64,000 nt of DNA. Origin: an uncultured Lachnospiraceae bacterium. Lineage in GTDB: Bacteria; Bacillota; Clostridia; Lachnospirales; Lachnospiraceae. A program made the position numbers and the translations under genes. A model generated the notes under the pieces. It saw only the letters and a list, made by a program, of their open reading frames with translations, ran no database searches and was not told the DNA's origin. Location of the stretch: NCBI GenBank assembly GCA_902787715.1, contig CADAHQ010000001.1, positions 62,001-126,000 on the forward strand, read 5' to 3'. Shown here piece by piece: positions 26,413 through 52,872 of this stretch; position 1 is the stretch's first letter; each line of letters starts with the position of its first letter.

Positions 26413-29400
26413 ATGAAGGATGAAATGAAACATCGGAAGAGAAGGATCGTTTTGTCAACCCTTGCGATGCGGCGTTTTCTCGCCGTGTTGTTGTGTGTGG
26501 CCATGGTCGTCAGTCTGTTCGTCGACATCGCCGCAGACGCGAAAAGCGATCGGAGCAATCAGAGCACATTGTCCGTAACGGAACAGACCGCATCGGTGTC
26601 TGCAGCTACGGACAGCAGTCTGGTTTCCGTGCCGGTTGCCATAGAGCAAAGCGTTGCATCGGAACAACCCGCAGATTTGCTTTCGGAGAGCGGGATGTTA
26701 CAGGAGGGTTTGCTTCAGGGGACTCCTGTTAAGATCAGCAATGCTCTTGCTGCAAATACGGAGCCGTATATTCTCTACGGAGTACACACAGAATGCGGAA
26801 CGGTAGATAATGCCTACAATCCGTCTACCCGTGTAGCGACATTAACAGCACAGCCCTATTCCGGATGCAAGTTTTATTGCTGGGCTGAAAAGTATGTTGA
26901 CGATGAGGGAAAGGATAGAGCCCGACTGATTCAGGATTCAAATCCATATTACCCGATTTTCACGTGGACTGTAACTACACCCGGACGCGAACTCTATGCA
27001 TATTTCATTAAAGAGGGAGTGTATTATACCTGGGATAATAATGACTGCAGTGAAAAAGGTACAGTTTATTATAACAGCAATTCTGCCCCTAAGACGGGTT
27101 TTGTTCCCGGAACAACACTGACTATTACTGCCAAGGCAAAGAATGGATATAAGGTCGTCGGTATAGAATATGCCTATATTTCGCGTCTTGCCAACGAGAG
27201 AGAGGAGGACGTAGAGTGGCACCAATTTACCGGTGACAGCATAACATTGACGATGCCGGCAAGTGACGTTTGGGTCAGAGGTATTTTCCACTCCACCATC
27301 CCGCGTAGGGTAACTCTTAAGACCGACGGAAAAGGAAAAGTAACCTTTAAAGGGACTGAAAGCACCGAAAAGTATTTTAAAGAGGGTGATATTGTAGAGG
27401 TGACAGTTACCCCGAATGAGTATTACAGACTGAGTGAGATTATAGGCCTTCACTCTCCTTATGATGCTGCAACAAACTCGTTTAAAATGGAGGATATTGA
27501 TACAGAGCTTACGTTTAATTTTACGTTTAGCGCGACAGTGTATTCGATAGAGCTGAAATATAGTGGTTACCAAAAATATACTGACGAAAGCGTGGAAATT
27601 CTCGATAATGCTACTCAGTTAGTTCAGTATTCCTGCACTATAAAAAACGAGTACAAGGGATATTTTGTTTTTGAAGGCTGGTATGAGATTGTCGGAAACC
27701 AACAAATATTTGTTTCCGCAGATCCGGTATATACTTTTACGGCAACAAGAAACATTATGCTGACACCCAGGGTTACTCCGGGAAGTCGAGTTATTAATGA
27801 GTCTCCAAGTTATATCAATGTAGTGCCGAAAAAGGATTGTTATCTTCCCGGTGATGTTGTAAAACTAATTGCGGCACCGCCCGCCGGTTATTATCTTAAT
27901 ACCTTTAAGATTGCGATATATGATGACGAAGGAGGCGCTTGGGGAGCTTACAATAACCTCGAAGGCGATACCATTACTGTCGGAAAGAATCATATAGCCA
28001 TCAAAGGTGAGTTTTATAAATATTACATTGCGGAGGCAGAAGCCAACGATAGTAAAGCAGGAACAGTAACCGGAAGTGGATATTATAAACCCGGTGAAAC
28101 AGCGACGCTTTCGGCGATACCCAATGAAGGCTATGAGTTTGTCGAGTGGCAAAACACGAGCGGTTCAACCGCTTCAATCGATTCGACTCTTAGGTATACC
28201 TTTCCGAATAGTACAAGCGGCGGAAAAATCAGCTTGGTTGCCATATTCCGCGCGCTTCCCAAGTATGCGATTACTGCGAAGTCCGACAGTGAGTACGGTT
28301 CTGTAACCGGCGGTGGAGAGTATGCTAAAGGATCGACGGCTACGTTGATAGCAACACCGAAGGAAAACTGTTATTTTGAGGGCTGGACAGAAAACGGAAA
28401 GACAGTGAGTACGGAAGCAACATACTCGTTTGTTGTTGATAACGCCCGCACCTTAACTGCTGTGTTCAAGCAGGAGACAGTCACTGTTTCCGCATCGCCT
28501 AACAACACAGCGTACGGTAGCGTAACCGGTGCCTCTACATATACAAAGGGTTCACAGGTTAACCTGATTGCGACAGCTAATACCGGGTATCGATTCATCA
28601 ACTGGACCGAAGAAAACACTATTGTCAGCACCAATGCAAACTATTCGTTTATGGCGATGAGGGACATTACCCTGATTGCAAATTTTGTTGTCGATGAAGA
28701 TACGATTGATGTTTCGGCCAATAATGACAAGTACGGTTCGGTCAGCGGCGGCGGTACGTATCAAAAGGGCAGCACCGTTACTCTGACGGCGACGGCCAAC
28801 AATGGTTATGAGTTTGTCAGCTGGACAGAGAACGGACAAGTTGTAAGTTCGAATGCAACATATACGTTTACGATGGCAAATGCGAGAACGTTTGTTGCAA
28901 ATTTCAAACCGAAGACATTTAACGTAACAATATCCGCTTCGCCTTCGGAAGGCGGTAGCGTTGAAAAGAGCGGCAGCTACGAGTATGATACACAAGTGAC
29001 GGTAAAGGCAACTCCGGCGAATGGGTATCGCTTCCTTAACTGGTCGGAAAACGGAAATACAGTAAGTACGAACCCGTCGTATTCCTTTACGATTCAAAAG
29101 GATCGCAGTCTTGTGGCGATTTTTGAAAAGATTGTTTACTATAATATTGGCGTCTCCCCGGCACCTTTGAATTACGGAACGGTTACAGGTGGCGGACGAT
29201 ACGAAGCGAAGACTACTGTAGATGTAGAAGCAATACCGAAGGCGGGCTTCATTTTCACCAACTGGACCGAAAACGGTACGGTTGTAAGCGAGAAAGCAAA
29301 GTACACATTTACGGCTTCCGCAAACAGAACTCTGGTTGCAAATTTCGCTGTCGACTTACGTGAAATCAAAGTGTCTAGCTCGGATGCAACATTAGGTTCT

Positions 29401-32400
29401 GTCAGCGGTGGAGGCAAGATTCAGGTCGGTCAGGTGGCAACGGTGATTGCTACGGCCAATCAGAATTGCCACTTTGTCAACTGGACGGAAAATGGTGTAC
29501 CGGTAAGCACGGATGCAACTTATGAATTTAAAGTTGAAAAAGAGCGGAACCTTGTGGCTGTTTTCGAAGAAATCGGTAAGGTTACGATTAATGCGGTTTC
29601 TTCGGACGATACGCTCGGTTCTGTGTCCGGTGGCGGAACTCATTACGTTGACTCTACGGTAAAGCTTGTGGCTACGGCATCTGATAACTGCCGGTTTGTC
29701 AGTTGGACCGAGAACGGGGAGGTTGTTTCGAGTTCGGCGGAGTATTCCTTCAAAGCGTCGAAGACCAGAACTCTTGTAGCGAATTTCGAAAAAATAATGT
29801 ATACGATCTCGGCGGAGCCGAATAACAGTGCTTATGGTACGGTTGAAGGCGCCGGAAGCTATCAGCAGGGTTCGACGGTCAAATTAACCGCGAAGGCTAC
29901 CGATGGTTATCGTTTTGTAAAATGGACCGAAGACGGTAAGCTTGTTTACTCGAAAGCTTCGTATTCGTTTGAGTGTGCAAGCAAGAGAAATCTTGTCGCG
30001 GTATTCGAAGAGATTCCGACGTTTACAGTAACCGTGTCTTCCAATGATTCGACGCTTGGATCGGTTTCCGGAGGCGGAAAGGTTTATGAGGGTAATACTG
30101 CAACAGTAACAGCCACCGCGAAGGAATATTGTATTTTCGTTGAGTGGAAAATGAACGACAAGACCGTCAGTACGAATCCAACCTATAAGTTTGAGCCGAA
30201 TAGTAACTGCACCCTTGTAGCAGTATTTGCCGAGGATATGGCGAAAGTAAACGTCACATCCAATGATACGACGTTCGGCAGCGTGAGCGGCGGCGGAGAG
30301 TTCCCAAAGGGCTCGGACGTCACGGTGAATGCGACAGCGGCGGACGATGATCATCGTTTTGTCAGCTGGACAGTGGATGGTGTAGTTGTAAGTACTTCAG
30401 CGAAGTATACTTTCCAGCTGAAAGATAATATCACACTTGTTGCTAATTTCAAAAAGATTGAAAGATGTACCGTAGAAGCAGTTTCGAGCAATGATGCAGC
30501 AGGTTCTGTTACCGGCGGTGGTAGCTATGAAGTCGGCGCAACGGTCAATTTGATCGCAAAGACTGGAGACGAAGGAATATTTGAAAACTGGACTGAGAAC
30601 GGAACCGTAGTTTGTACTGAACCTACGTATTCGTTTAAGGTCGAGAACGACAGAAAACTTGTTGCGAACTTTAAACTGAAAACATACATAGTTCAGGTGC
30701 AGGCAAACTACGATTCCTACGGCAGCGTTTCCGGCGGAGGTGAGTTTACCAAGGGGCAAACTGCTACGGTAACTGCTACGCCTAACGAGGGATACCTTTT
30801 CGATCACTGGATTATGAATGGGAAAACTGTAAGCAATCAGTCAACTTATTCCTTTGAGGTGACCGGCATTGTTGCTTTAGCAGCCGTATTCAAAGAAGAT
30901 CCGAACCCGGTAGAGTATCCGCTGAAGGTAAACGGCATCCGGATTACCAACAAGAACAAGGACAACATCACGGGTACCGGTATCAGCGGTAGCAACCTAA
31001 CCACACCGGTTTCTTATGAAGGCGATTCGAAGAAGGGAACTTTGACTCTAAACAATGCAATACTCATATACAACAGGGATTGCATCGTTTGCGAAGGAGG
31101 ACTTGAATTAACAATTCGCCTTGTTGGTGTAAATAATATTATAATAAATACTTCCAAAGATAACAATCTCTCAGGAATATACAAGGAAATGAGAACCCTT
31201 GAACCACTGACGATAACAGGAAACGGAAACGGGAAACTGACAATTGCAGGTGCAAAATTCGGAGTTTGGACAGATGGACCGCTTACTGTAAATGGATCAA
31301 CCATAGAGATTTCTTCAGATATAAAGGATTCTTTCGGATTAAATATCGGTGGAGATACTCGAATTTCCGAGAAGAGCAATGTCACAATTTTGGCGGACTT
31401 TATTGCTGTATATTGTTTCTCGTCATTATTAGTTTCTGATGGAAGCAAATTGAACCTTACTACGACAGGTGAAAAAAGTGAATCGAAATATTGTTTGCAT
31501 ACTGGTGACGATTTGGTAGTAAATGATGGTTGTAAGCTTACGATAAAAGGCCATTCCGGGAACGGAATCGATACGGATAGAGAAGCGATGATTCTCAGTT
31601 CGGAAATGTCTGTTTCAGCCCTGAATTGCGCAATTGATGCGGAAGGCAAGATAACACTCGGCAATGGCATAGCGGTAGCTACACCTGCGGGAGGAAAAAT
31701 CTCGGATGATGGAGTACAAATTGTTGACGCAGACGGAAACGTTGCAAAAGAGGTCACTCTTACAAAGGGTATCACAATCAATGCAACTGCATCGTCCAAG
31801 GAGGCCGGAACCGTTGAGGGAGCCGGTTGCTACGCTCCGGGCGCCGGTACTACGGTAAAACTGAAGGCAATTCCGAACGAGGGATATGAGTTTGTGAATT
31901 GGACGGAGGGTACTCAGGTCGTCAGCGATAAGGCGGCATATGAGTTCTCGCTTCAGGATGAGCGTACGCTGGTAGCGAACTTCCGAAAGAAGAAGTTCAC
32001 AATTACGTTTGTGAACGAAGACGGAACGGTACTTCAGAGCGAAATGGTTGAATACGGTGTTAAGCCGGTTTATAACAAAGAGACACCTGCCAAGGAAGCG
32101 ACAAAGCAGTATACGTACACCTTCGCAGGGTGGGATAACGCGGTAGTCGAAGTCGCGGGTGACGCTACCTATACGGCGACGTACGACAAAAAGCTGAATT
32201 CGTACAGAATCCGGTTTGTCGATGGAGATGGCAAGGAACTTCAGAGCAGTATGGTGGAATACGGCGTTGTTCCTCAGTACACAGGGGAAGAACCGGCACG
32301 TCCGAAGACGGCACAGTACACCTGGATCTTTGCAGGCTGGGACAAGAGTGTCGTTGCGGTAACCGGAGAAGAAACTTACAAGGCTGTATTCTCAGACAAG

Positions 32401-33240
32401 CTGAATACATACAAGGTCCGTTTTGTCGATGAGGACGGCACGGAACTTCAGAGCGAAGTGCTTGACTTCGGTGCTAAGCCGGTTTATAACGGAAAGACGC
32501 CTGCCAAGGCGGCGACGAAGCAGTATACCTATACGTTCGCAGGTTGGGACAACGAGGTAATCGCAGTCGCGGGTGATGCTACCTATACGGCGAAGTACGA
32601 CAGCAAGCTCAATTCGTATCAGGTGGTATTTGACTCCAACGGAGGTTCCGAGGTCGGCGCGAAGACGGTAGAGTACGGCAGCAAGTTGGAAAATGTTGCT
32701 GAACCGGTGCGCAAGGGATTTGACTTTATCGGATGGTTCACCGATGCAGCATGCACGAAGAAGGCGGATCTCACTGCAGCGATCACGGATGACTGCAAGT
32801 TCTATGCCGGTTGGGAGGAAGTGTTCTTCACTGTTACCGGCGATACGTCCTGGGATGTGAAGAGCGGGAAGGATTTCCATATCCATGTGACACGCAGCCG
32901 CAACGATGATATTCTGTTCGGCATGTTCGGCGGAATCCTTCTCGACGGCAAGCCTGTTGACGGCAAATACTTCAAGGCAGTTAAGGGAAGTATTGACTTG
33001 ACGGTAAGCAGTGAGCTCTTTAAGACAATCGAGGACGGCAATCATGAGATTACCGTATTGATCGGCGATACTTCGGTGACAACGAAGGTTGCGATTTCCA
33101 ACGATACCGGAGCAAGTGCTGAGGTTCAGGCACCGAAGACCGGCGACACATTGCCGATGGTAATTCTGCTGTCCCTTGTTCTTGCAGCACTTCTGATGTC
33201 GGGAGTGGTTTTGTACCGCAGAAAGAATGCGAGAGCATAA
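26413..33240 (+). CDS. Giant repeat-rich surface protein with sortase-like signal
   Basis: A 2275-residue secreted protein. A basic N-terminus and one hydrophobic helix (about residues 20-38) form the signal peptide. Residues 537-619 and twelve further units from 620 to 1500, each 70-74 residues, are InlB B-repeat-like beta modules (GSVSGGG...G..V...A......F..WTENG..VS....Y.F......LVA.F). Residues 1502-1786 look like a right-handed beta-helix (carbohydrate-binding Cthe_2159-like). One more unit follows at 1787, then three 69-residue repeats (1862-2068), a Flg_new unit and a compact domain. The end has APKTGD at 2240-2245, a hydrophobic helix and RRKNARA, an LPxTG-type sorting signal with Ala for Leu. 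AAGGAGA precedes the start. Role: likely adhesin or glycan binder. Confidence 0.85.
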   Translation: MKDEMKHRKRRIVLSTLAMRRFLAVLLCVAMVVSLFVDIAADAKSDRSNQSTLSVTEQTASVSAATDSSLVSVPVAIEQSVASEQPADLLSESGMLQEGLLQGTPVKISNALAANTEPYILYGVHTECGTVDNAYNPSTRVATLTAQPYSGCKFYCWAEKYVDDEGKDRARLIQDSNPYYPIFTWTVTTPGRELYAYFIKEGVYYTWDNNDCSEKGTVYYNSNSAPKTGFVPGTTLTITAKAKNGYKVVGIEYAYISRLANEREEDVEWHQFTGDSITLTMPASDVWVRGIFHSTIPRRVTLKTDGKGKVTFKGTESTEKYFKEGDIVEVTVTPNEYYRLSEIIGLHSPYDAATNSFKMEDIDTELTFNFTFSATVYSIELKYSGYQKYTDESVEILDNATQLVQYSCTIKNEYKGYFVFEGWYEIVGNQQIFVSADPVYTFTATRNIMLTPRVTPGSRVINESPSYINVVPKKDCYLPGDVVKLIAAPPAGYYLNTFKIAIYDDEGGAWGAYNNLEGDTITVGKNHIAIKGEFYKYYIAEAEANDSKAGTVTGSGYYKPGETATLSAIPNEGYEFVEWQNTSGSTASIDSTLRYTFPNSTSGGKISLVAIFRALPKYAITAKSDSEYGSVTGGGEYAKGSTATLIATPKENCYFEGWTENGKTVSTEATYSFVVDNARTLTAVFKQETVTVSASPNNTAYGSVTGASTYTKGSQVNLIATANTGYRFINWTEENTIVSTNANYSFMAMRDITLIANFVVDEDTIDVSANNDKYGSVSGGGTYQKGSTVTLTATANNGYEFVSWTENGQVVSSNATYTFTMANARTFVANFKPKTFNVTISASPSEGGSVEKSGSYEYDTQVTVKATPANGYRFLNWSENGNTVSTNPSYSFTIQKDRSLVAIFEKIVYYNIGVSPAPLNYGTVTGGGRYEAKTTVDVEAIPKAGFIFTNWTENGTVVSEKAKYTFTASANRTLVANFAVDLREIKVSSSDATLGSVSGGGKIQVGQVATVIATANQNCHFVNWTENGVPVSTDATYEFKVEKERNLVAVFEEIGKVTINAVSSDDTLGSVSGGGTHYVDSTVKLVATASDNCRFVSWTENGEVVSSSAEYSFKASKTRTLVANFEKIMYTISAEPNNSAYGTVEGAGSYQQGSTVKLTAKATDGYRFVKWTEDGKLVYSKASYSFECASKRNLVAVFEEIPTFTVTVSSNDSTLGSVSGGGKVYEGNTATVTATAKEYCIFVEWKMNDKTVSTNPTYKFEPNSNCTLVAVFAEDMAKVNVTSNDTTFGSVSGGGEFPKGSDVTVNATAADDDHRFVSWTVDGVVVSTSAKYTFQLKDNITLVANFKKIERCTVEAVSSNDAAGSVTGGGSYEVGATVNLIAKTGDEGIFENWTENGTVVCTEPTYSFKVENDRKLVANFKLKTYIVQVQANYDSYGSVSGGGEFTKGQTATVTATPNEGYLFDHWIMNGKTVSNQSTYSFEVTGIVALAAVFKEDPNPVEYPLKVNGIRITNKNKDNITGTGISGSNLTTPVSYEGDSKKGTLTLNNAILIYNRDCIVCEGGLELTIRLVGVNNIIINTSKDNNLSGIYKEMRTLEPLTITGNGNGKLTIAGAKFGVWTDGPLTVNGSTIEISSDIKDSFGLNIGGDTRISEKSNVTILADFIAVYCFSSLLVSDGSKLNLTTTGEKSESKYCLHTGDDLVVNDGCKLTIKGHSGNGIDTDREAMILSSEMSVSALNCAIDAEGKITLGNGIAVATPAGGKISDDGVQIVDADGNVAKEVTLTKGITINATASSKEAGTVEGAGCYAPGAGTTVKLKAIPNEGYEFVNWTEGTQVVSDKAAYEFSLQDERTLVANFRKKKFTITFVNEDGTVLQSEMVEYGVKPVYNKETPAKEATKQYTYTFAGWDNAVVEVAGDATYTATYDKKLNSYRIRFVDGDGKELQSSMVEYGVVPQYTGEEPARPKTAQYTWIFAGWDKSVVAVTGEETYKAVFSDKLNTYKVRFVDEDGTELQSEVLDFGAKPVYNGKTPAKAATKQYTYTFAGWDNEVIAVAGDATYTAKYDSKLNSYQVVFDSNGGSEVGAKTVEYGSKLENVAEPVRKGFDFIGWFTDAACTKKADLTAAITDDCKFYAGWEEVFFTVTGDTSWDVKSGKDFHIHVTRSRNDDILFGMFGGILLDGKPVDGKYFKAVKGSIDLTVSSELFKTIEDGNHEITVLIGDTSVTTKVAISNDTGASAEVQAPKTGDTLPMVILLSLVLAALLMSGVVLYRRKNARA
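28270..30909 (+). repeat. Twelve tandem InlB B-like coding repeats
   Basis: Units begin at residues 620, 690, 764, 837, 910, 984, 1057, 1130, 1203, 1277, 1351 and 1425 of the giant protein. They are diverged at DNA and protein level, so they are old duplications rather than recent copies. Shared core residues are GSVSGGG, WTENG and LVANF. Confidence 0.85.
31996..32616 (+). repeat. Three 69-residue coding repeats
   Basis: Three units of exactly 207 bp (residues 1862, 1931 and 2000) share FVDEDGTELQSE, PVYN, QYTYTFAGWDN and GDATYTA. Units 1 and 3 are the closest pair. Confidence 0.85.
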
Positions 33241-42875: not shown

Positions 42876-43886
42876 TTAGAAGTTTCCTGCGGTAGCAGCT
42901 TCCTCGATAGCAACTGCAACGGCAACCGTTGCGCCTACCATCGGGTTGTTGCCCATACCGATCAGACCCATCATCTCAACGTGAGCCGGAACGGAAGAGG
43001 AGCCTGCGAACTGCGCGTCGCTGTGCATACGGCCGAGAGTATCGGTGAAACCGTAGGAAGCAGGACCTGCAGCCATGTTATCCGGGTGAAGGGTACGACC
43101 GGTACCGCCGCCGGATGCTACGGAGAAATACTTCTTGCCGGCCTCAGTGCGCTCCTTCTTGTAGGTGCCTGCAACCGGATGCTGGAAACGGGTCGGGTTC
43201 GTGGAGTTACCGGTGATGGAAACGTCTACGTTCTCCTTCCACATGATTGCTACGCCTTCCGGAACGGAGTCAGCGCCGTAGCAGTTAACCTTAGCGCGAA
43301 GACCGTCGGAGTAGGAGTGGCGGCTGATTTCCTTAACCGTGTTGGTGTAAGGATCGTACTCGGTCTCTACATGCGTGAAACCGTTGATACGGCTGATGAT
43401 CTTAGCGGCATCCTTGCCGAGACCGTTGAGGATAACGCGGAGAGGCTTCTTACGAACCTTGTTTGCCTTCTCGGCGATACCGATAGCACCCTCAGCAGCA
43501 GCGAAGGACTCGTGACCTGCGAGGAATGCGAAGCAGTCCGTCTCCTCCTCGAGGAGCATCTTGCCGAGGTTACCATGGCCGAGACCAACCTTGCGGGTGT
43601 CGGCAACGGAGCCCGGGATACAGAAAGCCTGAAGACCCTCGCCGATTGCAGCAGCAGCGTCAGCGGCCTTGCGGCAGTTCTTCTTGATTGCGATGGCAGC
43701 GCCTACGGTGTAAGCCCAGCAAGCGTTCTCAAAGCAGATCGGCTGAATCTTCTTAACCTGATCGTAAACGTTCAGGCCGGCGTCCTTGGTGATCTTCTCC
43801 GCCTCTTCGATGGAGGAGATGCCATAGCTGTTCAAAACGGAATTGATCTTGTCAATTCTTCTTTCATACGATTCAAATAATGCCAT
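42876..43886 (-). CDS. GGGtGRT protein, partner of the Fe-S scaffold
   Basis: A 336-residue protein named in databases only by its motif GGGTGRT, here at residues 259-265. Other striking blocks are GLGHGNLGKMLLEEETDCFAF (about 101-121), HESFAAAEGAIGIAEKANK and the C-terminal VEMMGLIGMGNNPMVGAT. Cysteines are at 51, 56, 71, 89, 118 and 202. No signal peptide or membrane helix; the C-terminal AVAVAIEEAATAG is only mildly hydrophobic. GGAGG lies before the ATG. It follows the scaffold gene by 12 bp on the same strand. A nucleotide- or cofactor-binding role is a guess from the glycine-rich loops; function is unknown to me. Confidence 0.85.
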   Translation of the reverse strand: MALFESYERRIDKINSVLNSYGISSIEEAEKITKDAGLNVYDQVKKIQPICFENACWAYTVGAAIAIKKNCRKAADAAAAIGEGLQAFCIPGSVADTRKVGLGHGNLGKMLLEEETDCFAFLAGHESFAAAEGAIGIAEKANKVRKKPLRVILNGLGKDAAKIISRINGFTHVETEYDPYTNTVKEISRHSYSDGLRAKVNCYGADSVPEGVAIMWKENVDVSITGNSTNPTRFQHPVAGTYKKERTEAGKKYFSVASGGGTGRTLHPDNMAAGPASYGFTDTLGRMHSDAQFAGSSSVPAHVEMMGLIGMGNNPMVGATVAVAVAIEEAATAGNF

Positions 43887-43898
43887 TGTCGTTTCCTC

Positions 43899-44609
43899 CT
43901 AGTTCAACTCTAACTCTTTGTCGGTTCTCGGGTCGATGATCTTAACCGCATCGGCAACGCGACCGTACTGACCGCAAGCCTTAGCGTATGCGGTGTTGGG
44001 ATCGTCACCCTTCTTGATGAAATCGGTCATCTTGCCGAGGGAAACGAACTTGTAACCGATGATCTGGTTGTCGGCATCAAGAGCGATACCGGTAACATAG
44101 CCCTCAGCCATCTCGAGGTAGCGGGGACCCTTCTTCAGAGTACCGTACATTGTACCAACCTGGCTGCGGAGACCCTTGCCGAGGTCCTCAAGACCTGCGC
44201 CGACCGGAAGACCGTCCTCGGAAAATGCACTCTGGGAACGACCGTAAACGATCTGAAGGAACAACTCGCGCATAGCGGTGTTGATAGCGTCACAAACAAG
44301 GTCTGTATTGAGAGCTTCCAAAACGGTAAGACCGGGAAGAATCTCGGATGCCATAGCTGCGGAATGGGTCATACCGGAGCAGCCGATGGTCTCAACCAAA
44401 GCTTCCTGAATGATACCTTCCTTGATGTTGAGGGAGAGCTTGCACGCGCCCTGCTGGGGAGCACACCAGCCGACACCGTGAGTGAAACCGGAAATATCCT
44501 TAACTTCCTTCGCCTGAATCCACTTGGCTTCTTCCGGAATCGGAGCACAGCCGTGATGAACGCCCTGTGCTACGGTGCACATGTTTTCTACTTCCTGAGA
44601 ATAAATCAT
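43899..44609 (-). CDS. NifU/IscU-like iron-sulfur scaffold protein
   Basis: A 236-residue protein with an IscU-type core: CKLSLNIKEGIIQEALVETIGCSGMTHSAAMASEIL (Cys56 and Cys77 match two of the scaffold's three ligands), followed by AINTAMRELFLQIVYG. Cysteines 11, 21, 49, 106 and 212 are additional. The N-terminal stretch with CAPIPEEA and the C-terminal domain (GYVTGIALDADNQIIGYKFVSLGKMTDF) are not in ordinary IscU, so it is a long variant. The ATG at 44609 has AAGGAG at 11 bases. It is the first gene of a two-gene operon with the GGGtGRT protein. No cysteine desulfurase is nearby. Confidence 0.82.
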   Translation of the reverse strand: MIYSQEVENMCTVAQGVHHGCAPIPEEAKWIQAKEVKDISGFTHGVGWCAPQQGACKLSLNIKEGIIQEALVETIGCSGMTHSAAMASEILPGLTVLEALNTDLVCDAINTAMRELFLQIVYGRSQSAFSEDGLPVGAGLEDLGKGLRSQVGTMYGTLKKGPRYLEMAEGYVTGIALDADNQIIGYKFVSLGKMTDFIKKGDDPNTAYAKACGQYGRVADAVKIIDPRTDKELELN

Positions 44610-44655
44610 ACGATGAAAAACTCCTTTCATTTGATGTGGAAAATACACCTTCCGT

Positions 44656-44684
44656 ATTGTACCATAAGGCCACGGAAAATACTA
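44656..44684 (-). promoter_or_regulatory. Possible promoter of the scaffold-GGGtGRT operon
   Basis: On the reverse strand TACAAT (top 44661-44656) with a weak -35 (TAGTAT) 17 bp upstream, running into TTTTCCG. Confidence 0.4.
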
Positions 44685-48476: not shown

Positions 48477-51400
48477 TTAGCTTTGAGCCTTGTTTTCCGC
48501 CGCATGCAGACGTTTCTGCGCGGTGGAGAGCATCAGCTTGATTCGATTTAACTGGTTGACTTCGCTGGCACCGGGATCGTAATCCACGGCGACAATATTG
48601 GACTCGGGATGGCGGAGACGAAGCTCCTTGATGACACCCTTGCCCACAATGTGGTTCGGGAGGCAGGCGAAAGGCTGCGTGCACACGATGTTCGGTGCGC
48701 CTTCCTCGATGAGCTCAAGCATCTCTGCGGTGAGGAACCAACCCTCGCCGGTCATGTTGCCCACCGAAACAATCGGAGCAGCCTTGTCCGCAAGTTCCTT
48801 GATTGTGGAAGGAGCGGAGAAACGCTTGCTTGCGCGGAACGCTTTCTTGGCGGGTTTCCGGAACCATTCAATGAGGCGGATAGCCAGATTGTTGTAACGG
48901 GCTTCTTTCTTGCTCTTCCCGAGATGCTCGGCCTTGAAGTTGCAGTCGTAGCAGCAGTAGAGGAAGAAGTCAAGAAGATCGGGACAGACCGCCTCGGCAC
49001 CTTCGGATTCCAGCAATTCCACGAGGTGATTGTTCGCCGTGGGGAGGAATTTGACGAGGATCTCGCCGACCACACCCACACGGGGCTTTACTACGTCCTC
49101 CTTGAGCGGAAGGTTGTCGAAATCGCGGATAATGTCGCGACAGTTTTTCTTAAACTTATGGAGATGTCCCTTCTCAACGTCCTTGGCGCAAACGGCATTC
49201 CACTTTTCGTAGAGGGCGTTGGCGGAACCCGGAACCTTTTCGTAGGGTCTCGTGCGGTAGAGAACCCGCATGAAGATATCACCGTAGATCAGGGCTTCCA
49301 AAGCGCTCATGATAAGCTTCGGCGTGTACTCAAGACCGGGATTTTTCTCAATGCCGCTGGTGCTTATGGAGATGACCGGGATATGGGAAAGACCGGCCTT
49401 CGCCAAAGCGCGGCGGATGAATCCGATGTAGTTTGTGGCACGACAGCCGCCGCCGGTCTGAGAAATCATGACTGCGACACGGTTGGTGTCATAACGGCCG
49501 GACTGCAGGGCGCTCATAATCTGGCCGACGACAATCAGGGACGGGTAGCAGGCGTCGTTGTTCACGTACTGCAGACCCACATCGATGGCATCGCGGTTGT
49601 CCTGGGAGTCCAGCACCTCGATGTTATAGCCGTGGGCGCGGAGCGCAGGCTCAATCAGCCGGAAGTGAATCGGCGACATCTGGGGCGCAAGAAGCGTATA
49701 ATTCTTCCGCATCTCCTCGGTGAAGATAACGCGGTTGTGAGCGGAAGAGTGAACGGGTGCCGTCACATGCTTTCTGGCGCGCTCGCGCACTGCGGAGAGA
49801 AGCGAACGCACACGGATGCGGGCAGCGCCCAGGTTGTTTACTTCGTCAATCTTGAGAACCGTATAAATCTTGCCGGCGCTCGTTAAGATATCGCTCACAC
49901 CGTCCGTGGTGACGGCGTCGAGACCGCAACCGAAGGAGTTGAGCTGGATGAGCTCCAGGTTCTCCTGGGTGCGGACAAATGCAGCCGCATTGTAGAGTCT
50001 GGTGTGGTACATCCACTGGTCCACGACGATCATCGGGCGGTCGACGCACCCAAGGTGAGACACGGAGTCCTCGGTGAGGACAGCGACACCGTAGGAGCAG
50101 ATCATATCCGGAATGCCGTGGTGAATCTCCGGGTCGATATGGTAAGGACGTCCTGCGAGAACGATACCCGTTCTGCCGGTTTCCTTCAGATATTCCAGAG
50201 TTTCCTCACCCTTTCTGCGAATCTCTTCCTTTACCGCCATGGCTTCCGCCCAGGCAGCGTGTACGGCTTCGCGAACCTCCTGCTTGGAGATGCCTTTCGC
50301 CGTAAAATGCTTCACAAGCCCATCGGTAATGATCGCCTCGGACTCGAAGGAGAAGAAAGGATTCTCGTAGACAATTTCGGTGGTCTTTAATTCATCCACA
50401 TTGTTCTTAATGTTCTCACCGTAGGAGGTGACGATCGGGCAGTTGTAATGGTTGCCCGCACCCTGGTCTTCCTTATGCTCGTAAGGAATGCAGGGGTAGA
50501 AGATATACGGTACTTTCTGGTTGATGAGCCAGCTGATGTGACCGTGTGCAAGCTTTGCGGGATAGCATTCGGACTCGCTGGGGATGGACTCGATACCGAG
50601 CTCGTAGATTCGGCGGTTCGAAGCCGGCGATACGATGACGCGGTAACCGAGTTTTGTGAAGAACGTAAACCAGAAAGGATAGTTTTCATACATGTTGAGA
50701 ACGCGCGGAATTCCGACGATGCCGCGCGGAGCCTGCGTCACGGGGAGAGGCTCATAGTCAAAGGTGCGCTTTAACTTGTATTCGAAGAGGTTCGGAATGT
50801 GATCTTTGTTCTTTTCCTTGCCGATACCGCGCTCGCAACGGTTGCCGGAGATGAACTGACGGCCGCCGGAGAAGCGGTTGATGGTGAGAAGGCAGGCGTT
50901 GGTACAGCCCTTGCAGCGCGCCATGGAAGTCTCAAAGCGAAGCTCGCCCAGTTCCTCACGGGAGATCATGGAAGTCGCAGTGCCTTCATAGTGGTCGCGT
51001 GCAATGAGAGCCGCACCGAAGGCGCCCATGATACCGGCGATATCGGGACGGATGACCTCGCAGTCGGCGATGCGCTCGAGGCTTCGAAGAACTGCATCGT
51101 TATAGAAGGTGCCGCCCTGAACTACGATTTTGGAACCGAGCTCCTTGGCGGAGGTCACCTTGATAACCTTGTAAAGGGCGTTCTTGATGACGGAGTACGC
51201 AAGACCTGCGGAGATATCCGCAACGGTAGCGCCTTCCTTCTGCGCCTGCTTTACTTTACTGTTCATAAAGACGGTACAACGGGAACCGAGGTCGATGGGA
51301 TTTTCCGCAAAAAGAGCAATCTTCGCAAAGTCGGCGACCTCATAATCGAGGCTCTTTGCAAAAGTCTCGATGAAGGAGCCGCAGCCCGAGGAGCAGGCTT

Positions 51401-52724
51401 CGTTGAGCTGCACCTTGTCGACAGTACCGTTCTTGATTTGGATGCATTTCATGTCCTGGCCGCCGATATCGAGAATGCAGTCGACGTCGGGGTTGAAAAA
51501 TGCCGCCGCATGGTAGTGGGCAACCGTCTCAACCTCGCCCTCGTCAAGCATGAGAGCAGCCTTGACCAAAAGCTCGCCGTAGCCGGTGGAGCAGGTGCGA
51601 ACGATGCGCGCGCTGTCCGGCAACAGCGAATAAACCTCTTTAAGAGCCTTGATTGTGGTCTTTAAGAGGCTTCCGTTATTGTTGCTGTAGAAGGAATACA
51701 GAAGAGAACCATCCTCACCCACAAGGGCAAGCTTCGTGGTGGTGGAGCCGGCGTCGATACCTAAGAAGCAGTCGCCTTCGTAGCTTGCGAGGTCACCCTT
51801 GCCGACGGTATGTCTGCTGTGGCGCTCAACGAAAGCATCATACTCCTCCTTCGAGGAGAAGAGCGGCTCCATACGGTTGACCTCAAAGGCCATTGCGATA
51901 CCGTGCGCAAGACGATCGTGAAGGGAGGACAAAAGAACCGGATTGTCCTTCTCCGAGGACATGGCCGAGCCGATGGCTGCAAAAAGATGTGAATGGTCCG
52001 GCGCATAGACCTGTTCGTCGGTCAGTTTCAAAGTGCGGATAAATGCAGCGCGAAGCTCCGTCAGGAAATGGAGTGGGCCGCCTAAGAATGCCACGTTGCC
52101 GCGGATGGGCTTGCCGCAGGCGAGACCGCTGATGGTCTGGTTGACGACAGCCTGGAAGATGGAAGCCGCAAGGTCGGGCTTCGTCGCACCTTCGTTGATC
52201 AGGGGCTGAATGTCCGTCTTGGCAAATACACCGCAGCGAGCGGCGATGGGATAGATTGCCTGATAAGATTTTGCGTACTCGTTCAGGCCGGAGGCATCGG
52301 TCTTTAAGAGACTTGCCATCTGGTCGATGAAGGAGCCGGTACCGCCTGCGCAGATACCGTTCATGCGCTGGTCAATGCCGTTGGTGAAGTAGATGATCTT
52401 CGCGTCCTCGCCGCCGAGCTCAATGGCGACGTCGGTCTTCGGGGAGTAGTATTCCAGGGCATTGGAAACCGCGACTACCTCCTGAATGAAGGGAACGTCC
52501 AGATGCTTCGAAATGGTGAGACCGCCGGAGCCGGTAATCATCGGACAAACCTCGCGGTCGCCGAGCTTCTCCATGGCGCGGCCGATCAAAAGTGCCAACG
52601 TCTGCTGGATATTCGCAAAATGCCGCTCGTAATCGGCGAAGAGGACTTCCCCGTTGTCATCACGAATCGCAATTTTGACAGTGGTGGAACCGATATCCAC
52701 ACCCATGCTTAACAACTCTGCCAT
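48477..52724 (-). CDS. 2-Hydroxyacyl-CoA dehydratase activase-dehydratase fusion
   Basis: A 1415-residue Fe-S protein. Two ASKHA ATPase domains of the HgdC/BadF type lie in tandem: the first (residues 1 to about 280) with [23 protein letters not shown] and the second cluster cysteine in [10 protein letters not shown]; the second (about 320-600) with [26 protein letters not shown] and [15 protein letters not shown]2229-type region follows (about 650-900; [28 protein letters not shown]). The last 450 residues resemble the dehydratase subunit HgdB. Activases inject one electron per ATP into the dehydratase. The start at 52724 has GAGGTG. It lacks neighbouring CoA-transferase or fermentation genes. 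Confidence 0.88.
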
Positions 52725-52872
52725 ATAACACCTCATCGTAAAGTTCTCGACGCCCCACATACGCGTCGTTTTCGTAACCGCACAATGCGGTTCATAATAA
52801 TACATAAACGGTATACGCACATACAAAATCAGTATACTTCATCTTTGCCTAAATGGCAACAGTTATTTATGC
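52725..52872 (-). promoter_or_regulatory. Promoter and leader of the activase-dehydratase gene
   Basis: On the reverse strand: TTGCCA (top 52859-52854), 17 bp, TATACT (top 52836-52831). The inverted repeat TTGCCTAAATGGCAA (52845-52859) overlaps the -35. The roughly 100-nt leader has one hairpin, AACCGCA/TGCGGTT (52776-52792). Confidence 0.65.

Follow-up and report, generated by a model that had tools for sequence, protein, structure and literature searches.

A conserved gene pair encoding an IscU-fold protein and a GGGtGRT protein, a candidate iron-sulfur module of diverse, often anaerobic bacteria

Iron-sulfur (Fe-S) assembly genes usually rise under iron shortage. The cluster ligands of IscU are cysteines 37, 63 and 106 together with Asp39, and LPPVK is the motif of that protein. 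MIS (minimal ISC) and SMS (SmsB-SmsC) are minimal Fe-S systems of few genes, SMS being found in anaerobes (PMC12192291). The gene pair described here likewise consists of few genes, but it comes without a cysteine desulfurase and without a SufB-like protein; genes of these two kinds sit elsewhere in the same genome, on contigs C19 and C3. Compared with the IscU/NifU/SufU family (PF01592), the first protein of the pair has a detectable core homology (E 2e-5), its structure model matches ISCU and it retains, as C77, the cysteine equivalent to C63 of E. coli IscU. It differs in being about 100 residues longer and in carrying C106 as a further invariant cysteine, while no counterpart of the third ligand region or of LPPVK was seen. 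A further difference from that family is that the window shows no desulfurase beside the IscU-like gene. The second protein is a full-length member of PF14057, and no difference from that family was seen.

Organization and conservation of the gene pair

The window, that is the whole stretch of 64,000 nucleotides analysed (C1:62001-126000), carries the pair on its minus strand. Two ORFs with a 12-bp gap had been noted in a sequence-only reading of this DNA, and both are present. The gene of the IscU-fold protein (43899..44609, minus strand, 236 aa, ATG at 44609) lies upstream, and that of the GGGtGRT protein (PF14057; 42876..43886, minus strand, 336 aa) lies downstream of the gap (43887-43898, minus strand). 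An alternative longer ORF of the IscU-like gene has a GTG start and reaches 44648. As judged by eye, a Shine-Dalgarno-like sequence precedes both ORFs, and the GGAGG-type ribosome site before the GGGtGRT gene overlaps the stop codon of the IscU-like gene. Promoter- and terminator-like sites around the pair were no more frequent than in shuffles.

The neighbours of the pair encode a SPOUT methyltransferase, a HisA-like protein, seryl-tRNA synthetase, a hexapeptide-repeat protein, a sortase, a metallophosphatase and a large BadF/DUF2229 protein, and a scan of ten neighbours found no Fe-S assembly gene among them. The class-V aminotransferase family that includes cysteine desulfurases (PF00266) gave no match within the window; it has 12 matches in the genome, the nearest on the same contig being at C1:155626. 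Matches to PF01592 and PF01458 lie on other contigs, in agreement with the earlier remark that no desulfurase, SUF or NIF gene is near. The BadF/DUF2229 protein (48477-52826, 1449 aa) combines BadF/BcrAD ATPase and DUF2229 domains and is of the CoA-enzyme activase type, a kind that is iron-sulfur dependent. Elsewhere in the window, a 2275-aa ORF at 26413-33240 stands out among the 42 ORFs measured by the lowest third-position G+C (0.48) and the weakest codon bias; it is possibly of foreign origin.

On contig C19 of the same genome, a canonical IscU gene adjoins an IscS-type class-V aminotransferase, which is the best PF00266 match of the genome, and an Rrf2/IscR-type regulator-like protein (by eye) is encoded close by. 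The single SUFBD match (PF01458) is a 307-aa open frame on contig C3, SmsB-like in size. The pair is additional to two other Fe-S systems in this genome, because the IscS-IscU-like pair and the SufB-like gene are found elsewhere in it.

In the class sample, the GGGtGRT gene was found in 66 of 148 genomes and the IscU-like gene in all 66. In 65 of them the IscU-like gene precedes GGGtGRT on one contig and in the same orientation; in the remaining one (G224) the two were on separate contigs. The distance between the profile matches in the 65 paired genomes had a median of 32 bp, the largest being 788 bp. The IscU-like profile matched 98 of the 148 genomes, 67 of them strongly (>300 bits). The other 31 matches covered the core region and were weak, none scoring above about 35 bits, which is what canonical IscU would be expected to give. 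The sole strong match beyond the 66 genomes was in G107, where the gene is cut by a contig end. Pairing was likewise complete in the first two genome samples (34/34 loci, the genome of the window included). It was found in 76 of 80 loci of a public genome collection, these being the best 80 of 584 matches and by title mostly Lachnospiraceae; in the four misses the GGGtGRT gene is at most 223 nt from a contig end. Three of 19 viral-contig loci hold a full GGGtGRT gene and all three are paired, the others being fragments. Ten records of a plasmid collection contain GGGtGRT, and the eight examined, from four phyla, are all paired: Parabacteroides, Phocaeicola, Bacteroides, two Persicobacter, Collinsella, Subdoligranulum and Vibrio.

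The family is patchy. It occurs in 4 of 101 genomes of the phylum sample. For G246, whose MAG carries the label Alistipes, the phylum gave 1 of 99, which is the central genome itself. The order sample of G246 gave GGGtGRT in 16 of 99 genomes, 14 of them paired. One of the two exceptions lies at a contig end. The other (L197, in G442) has pieces of both genes, remnants lying side by side as if the pair decays jointly. The survey thus found adjacency near-total wherever contig ends allow, and not homologues occurring mostly apart.

Distances measured within one protein are correlated with those within the other (r 0.87, a value reached in 0 of 1000 permutations; 120 rows, a few of them copies of one locus). 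In these alignments this points to joint inheritance rather than contact, because shared species history alone would produce such a correlation. The 971 neighbour ORFs of loci L036-L115 revealed no third conserved operon gene, and the next commonest neighbour families (31 and 27 loci) resemble vertical synteny. Upstream of 117 loci promoter-like AT-rich words are prominent, and no Fur-like box was seen there by eye. Single loci vary: an additional 166-aa ORF lies between the two genes at L179:1169-1669 (G241), and a 63-aa hypothetical protein is encoded between them at L138:5800-5991. In Collinsella (L140) the pair is preceded by a SUF cluster (sufB, sufD-like, sufS, sufU) whose end lies about 1.9 kb upstream; a transposase separates the two.

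Another NifU_N or SUFBD gene is present in 65 of the 66 pair genomes. In ten of the 66 the sole NifU_N match is weak (E ~1e-4) and presumably comes from the pair. SUFBD is present in nine of these genomes, the tenth (G205) being an 89% complete draft. The pair was associated neither with SUFBD (29/66 with the pair vs 30/82 without, p 0.40) nor with canonical NifU_N (56/66 vs 75/82, p 0.30). It is no replacement for the standard scaffold systems.

Features of the two proteins

The IscU-fold protein comprises an N-terminal extension (residues 1-42), an IscU-like core (about residues 43-125) and a C-terminal part (126-236). Its scores sit under the curated family cut-offs: 18 bits against 22 for PF01592, and, far lower, 21.9 against 187.9 for NifU_clost, 17.7 against 192.4 for iscU and 15.2 against 92.5 for SufU in NCBIfam. 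A profile of 30 relatives (A6) nevertheless found solved NifU/IscU chains in the PDB, the best being NifU-1 with the E value given above. Foldseek searches with the structure model placed human ISCU chains first (E 2e-4, TM-score 0.29 by query length); the model itself is weak (pLDDT 62.7, pTM 0.41). Based on the sub-cut-off family scores together with the profile and Foldseek matches, we regard the protein as a divergent member of the IscU fold; it had earlier been described as a long IscU-type scaffold with extra N- and C-terminal domains. An internal duplication of the fold was considered and rejected. In the model the beta-beta-alpha-alpha order recurs in the second half, and 21 columns of the two halves were paired by hhalign in an apparently right register, but its score was reached by 36 of 200 column shuffles.

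The protein contains seven cysteines, at positions 11, 21, 49, 56, 77, 106 and 212. All those listed in the sequence-only reading are present, and two that it had placed beyond the core pair, C49 and C106, proved invariant together with C77 (120/120 rows of the family alignment, which includes a few copies of the same locus, e.g. L117 and L135). C56 is kept in 118 of 120 rows and C11 mostly (104 of 119), while C21 and C212, also on that list, are poorly kept (22 and 8 of 120). In L141 and L144 (Vibrio, Persicobacter) Cys56 is replaced by Ala, and Cys49, 77 and 106 are retained. The three invariant cysteines are compatible with binding of an Fe-S cluster. In the alignment with 2kqk, which stops short of C106 of IscU, C77 is aligned with IscU C63, Gln53 with IscU C37 and Ala55 with IscU residue 39; Cys49 stands four residues ahead of Gln53. 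The LPPVK motif was not found by eye in the sequence. A cluster site in this protein, if present, would have been rebuilt relative to IscU, since only C77 is at an IscU ligand position and both the Asp and LPPVK are missing.

SufU chains occur among both the profile and the Foldseek matches, and the IscU cysteine that C77 matches is the one that also occurs in SufU/SufE-type sulfur carriers. The pair could on these grounds be a co-inherited operon that joins a clusterless, SufU-like carrier of sulfur or zinc (the IscU-like protein) to an unrelated enzyme (GGGtGRT). We consider this quite unlikely: the SufU model scores far under its cut-off, both genes respond to iron (see below), and the window lacks a desulfurase; the SUF cluster near the Collinsella pair includes one.

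The GGGtGRT protein matches PF14057 over its full length (631 bits against a cut-off of 27; profile positions 1-327 of 327) and is the single match to this family in the genome. Its identity to the 26 other rows of alignment A7 is 63-85%; for the seven whose labels place them in other phyla the range is 66-80%. It has invariant His, Asp and Gly-rich stretches. Six cysteines (51, 56, 71, 89, 118 and 202) had been counted earlier and are indeed there, and cluster binding by this protein had been suggested on their account. None is invariant, C118 (119/120), C89 (117/120) and C202 (115/120) being nearly so, and a cysteine-ligated cluster within the protein is, on this alignment, unlikely. The companion suggestion of nucleotide binding likewise found no backing: neither the fold searches nor the scans for further families gave anything significant for this protein.

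The GGGtGRT protein gave a good structure model (pLDDT 78.9, pTM 0.81), except in its most conserved part. No structure in the PDB or BFVD was matched by Foldseek at E 1e-3 or better. The top PDB match, 3ecs, is an eIF2B alpha of the family that also holds ribose-1,5-bisphosphate isomerase (IF-2B), with a non-significant E of 4.6e-3. In eIF2B a helical N-terminal part is followed by an alpha/beta part, and the same layout is seen in the GGGtGRT model. The order of motifs was a further hint at membership of the eIF2B/MtnA superfamily (IF-2B, PF01008), besides the first rank in Foldseek. This candidate was set aside as unsupported: the TM-score with eIF2B alpha is 0.23, and profile comparison was no better than with other families (hhalign probability 0.65%, beaten by four of 38 other families). 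The shallow GGGtGRT profile (Neff 1.6) limits the weight of this comparison.

The GGGTGRT loop (residues 259-299; window 42990-43112) is the most conserved part of the protein, and its pLDDT is <50 in the monomer model. Residues 124-161 of the IscU-fold protein are similarly conserved, yet modelled with pLDDT <50. Conserved but apparently unfolded loops in both models would be expected if their folding needs contact with a partner or cofactor; an alternative cause is the shallowness of the alignments, which comprise 31 and 38 sequences of close relatives.

Iron response and possible function of the pair

In C. pasteurianum the GGGtGRT protein (F502_05012) was 7.1-fold higher in iron-replete than in iron-limited cells in the early phase (PMC5395762, Table 2), and the NifU-related protein (F502_05017) was 2.4- and 3.7-fold (two spots) up in the iron-replete early phase (PMC5395762). 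In B. thetaiotaomicron, BT0173-74, annotated as GGGtGRT and NifU, went 11- to 12.8-fold down in iron depletion (PMC10434189, Table 6); rubrerythrin and ferritin genes were about threefold down, and PFOR and fumarate reductase also decreased (PMC10434189). The response was thus shown by others under these gene names, and the genes are equated with the pair by names and neighbouring locus tags. Metaproteomes of chicken caecum and rumen include proteins annotated as GGGtGRT and NifU, the latter matched by name (PMC11204068, PMC7035244). In the passages covered, neither iron study proposes a function for the pair (PMC5395762, PMC10434189), and the texts covered on GGGtGRT proteins assign none. Among the papers listed for the Pfam number PF14057 only unrelated ones appeared, and none of those listed in further literature searches deals with what the pair does or with a third system.

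Codon usage was compared among 42 window ORFs of at least 150 aa, a mechanically chosen set in which some are probably non-genes. The GGGtGRT gene has the lowest effective number of codons (33.8), that is the strongest bias, and the IscU-like ORF, taken from its longer GTG start, ranks 4 of 42 (39.9). The strong bias of the pair suggests high expression. Taken together, the pair is an iron-linked and probably abundant two-protein module, conserved in records from four phyla.

An assembly or transfer module dedicated to clusters had been proposed from the sequence. The published iron data support an iron-linked role, of which such a module is one possible form; the pair goes down, not up, in low iron, and this fits iron-using proteins at least as well.

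Our preferred reading, held tentatively, is that the two proteins form an obligate Fe-S complex serving as an accessory cluster-stocking or hand-over module in iron-replete cells. The observations behind it are the pairing, the fold family of the first protein, its invariant cysteines, the codon bias and the coexistence with other systems, to which published work under these gene names adds the iron response. It is likely that the pair forms one functional complex and probable that the IscU-like subunit carries a cluster. The cluster would be held by the IscU-fold subunit at a rebuilt site made of C49, C77 and C106. GGGtGRT would be the dedicated partner, its long conserved loop closing over the IscU-like subunit or its cluster. 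Such a complex, abundant when iron is plentiful, would supplement the housekeeping IscS-IscU and SmsB-type systems without replacing them. It would most likely stock clusters or pass them to the iron-sulfur-rich fermentation enzymes of anaerobes.

The same iron data run in the direction of iron-using enzymes (rubrerythrin, PFOR, fumarate reductase), which, with the strong conservation of GGGtGRT, its invariant His, Asp and Gly-rich stretches and the strongest codon bias among the window ORFs measured, would suit a two-subunit Fe-S enzyme. Here an IscU fold would have been recruited as cluster carrier, and GGGtGRT would be catalytic with a glycine-rich loop for substrate or cofactor. This alternative is possible, and we place it below the stocking or hand-over module: GGGtGRT has no significant fold match in the PDB or BFVD, and no third gene hinting at a pathway is kept beside the pair in L036-L115. 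As between supply and use of clusters, we lean towards supply, short of confidence in either.

A store of iron or iron sulfide in iron-replete cells would also explain why the pair is high in such cells. Fewer genomes with the pair than without it have a strong ferritin match, at E 1e-20 or better (21/66 vs 42/82, Fisher p 0.02), but the difference vanishes within families (5 observed and 5.5 expected in 25 genomes of 7 mixed families), and no IscU fold is known to act as an iron store. We rate a store as the least probable of the readings considered.

A third Fe-S module of gut and other anaerobes, standing beside ISC/MIS and SUF/SMS and made of an IscU-derived three-Cys scaffold with a partner of new fold, appears rather unlikely to us. 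On that reading the universally conserved GGGTGRT loop would fold only in the complex, and clusters would be supplied or trafficked under iron-replete conditions.

The pair is kept in very different bacteria, many of them anaerobes, and the proteins so named respond to iron in two phyla. If it supplies clusters, as we prefer, Fe-S biogenesis in common gut anaerobes has a component that is absent from current models. If it is an enzyme, these bacteria have an abundant iron-dependent reaction so far undescribed.

The 3′ end of the GGGtGRT gene

Tyrosine recombinase genes of mobile elements lie next to short copies of the terminal part of GGGtGRT (about 28 to 65 codons) and next to the terminus of the gene itself. 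All 11 recombinase candidates scanned (L122, L124-L129, L143, L174, L175 and L176) match integrase-type Pfam domains. Eight of them are in the seven viral contig loci (L122, L124-L129) and in Phocaeicola (L143). L122 begins inside GGGtGRT, so the end found there may be the gene itself, and at the L143:9134-9298 site the recombinase neighbour is a 132-aa piece with the arm-binding domain only. Four clostridial loci combine an intact GGGtGRT gene with a further copy of its end. A recombinase lies beside the intact gene in L174 and L175 and beside the copy in L176, whereas none was recognised in L173. Because end copies and gene end adjoin recombinase genes, the 3′ end of GGGtGRT is very likely an attachment site for tyrosine-recombinase elements in Bacteroidales-like and clostridial hosts. 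In the genome of the window, with its single match to the family, no second copy of the end was seen. One further locus, L146, is a phage record that carries a GGGtGRT gene.
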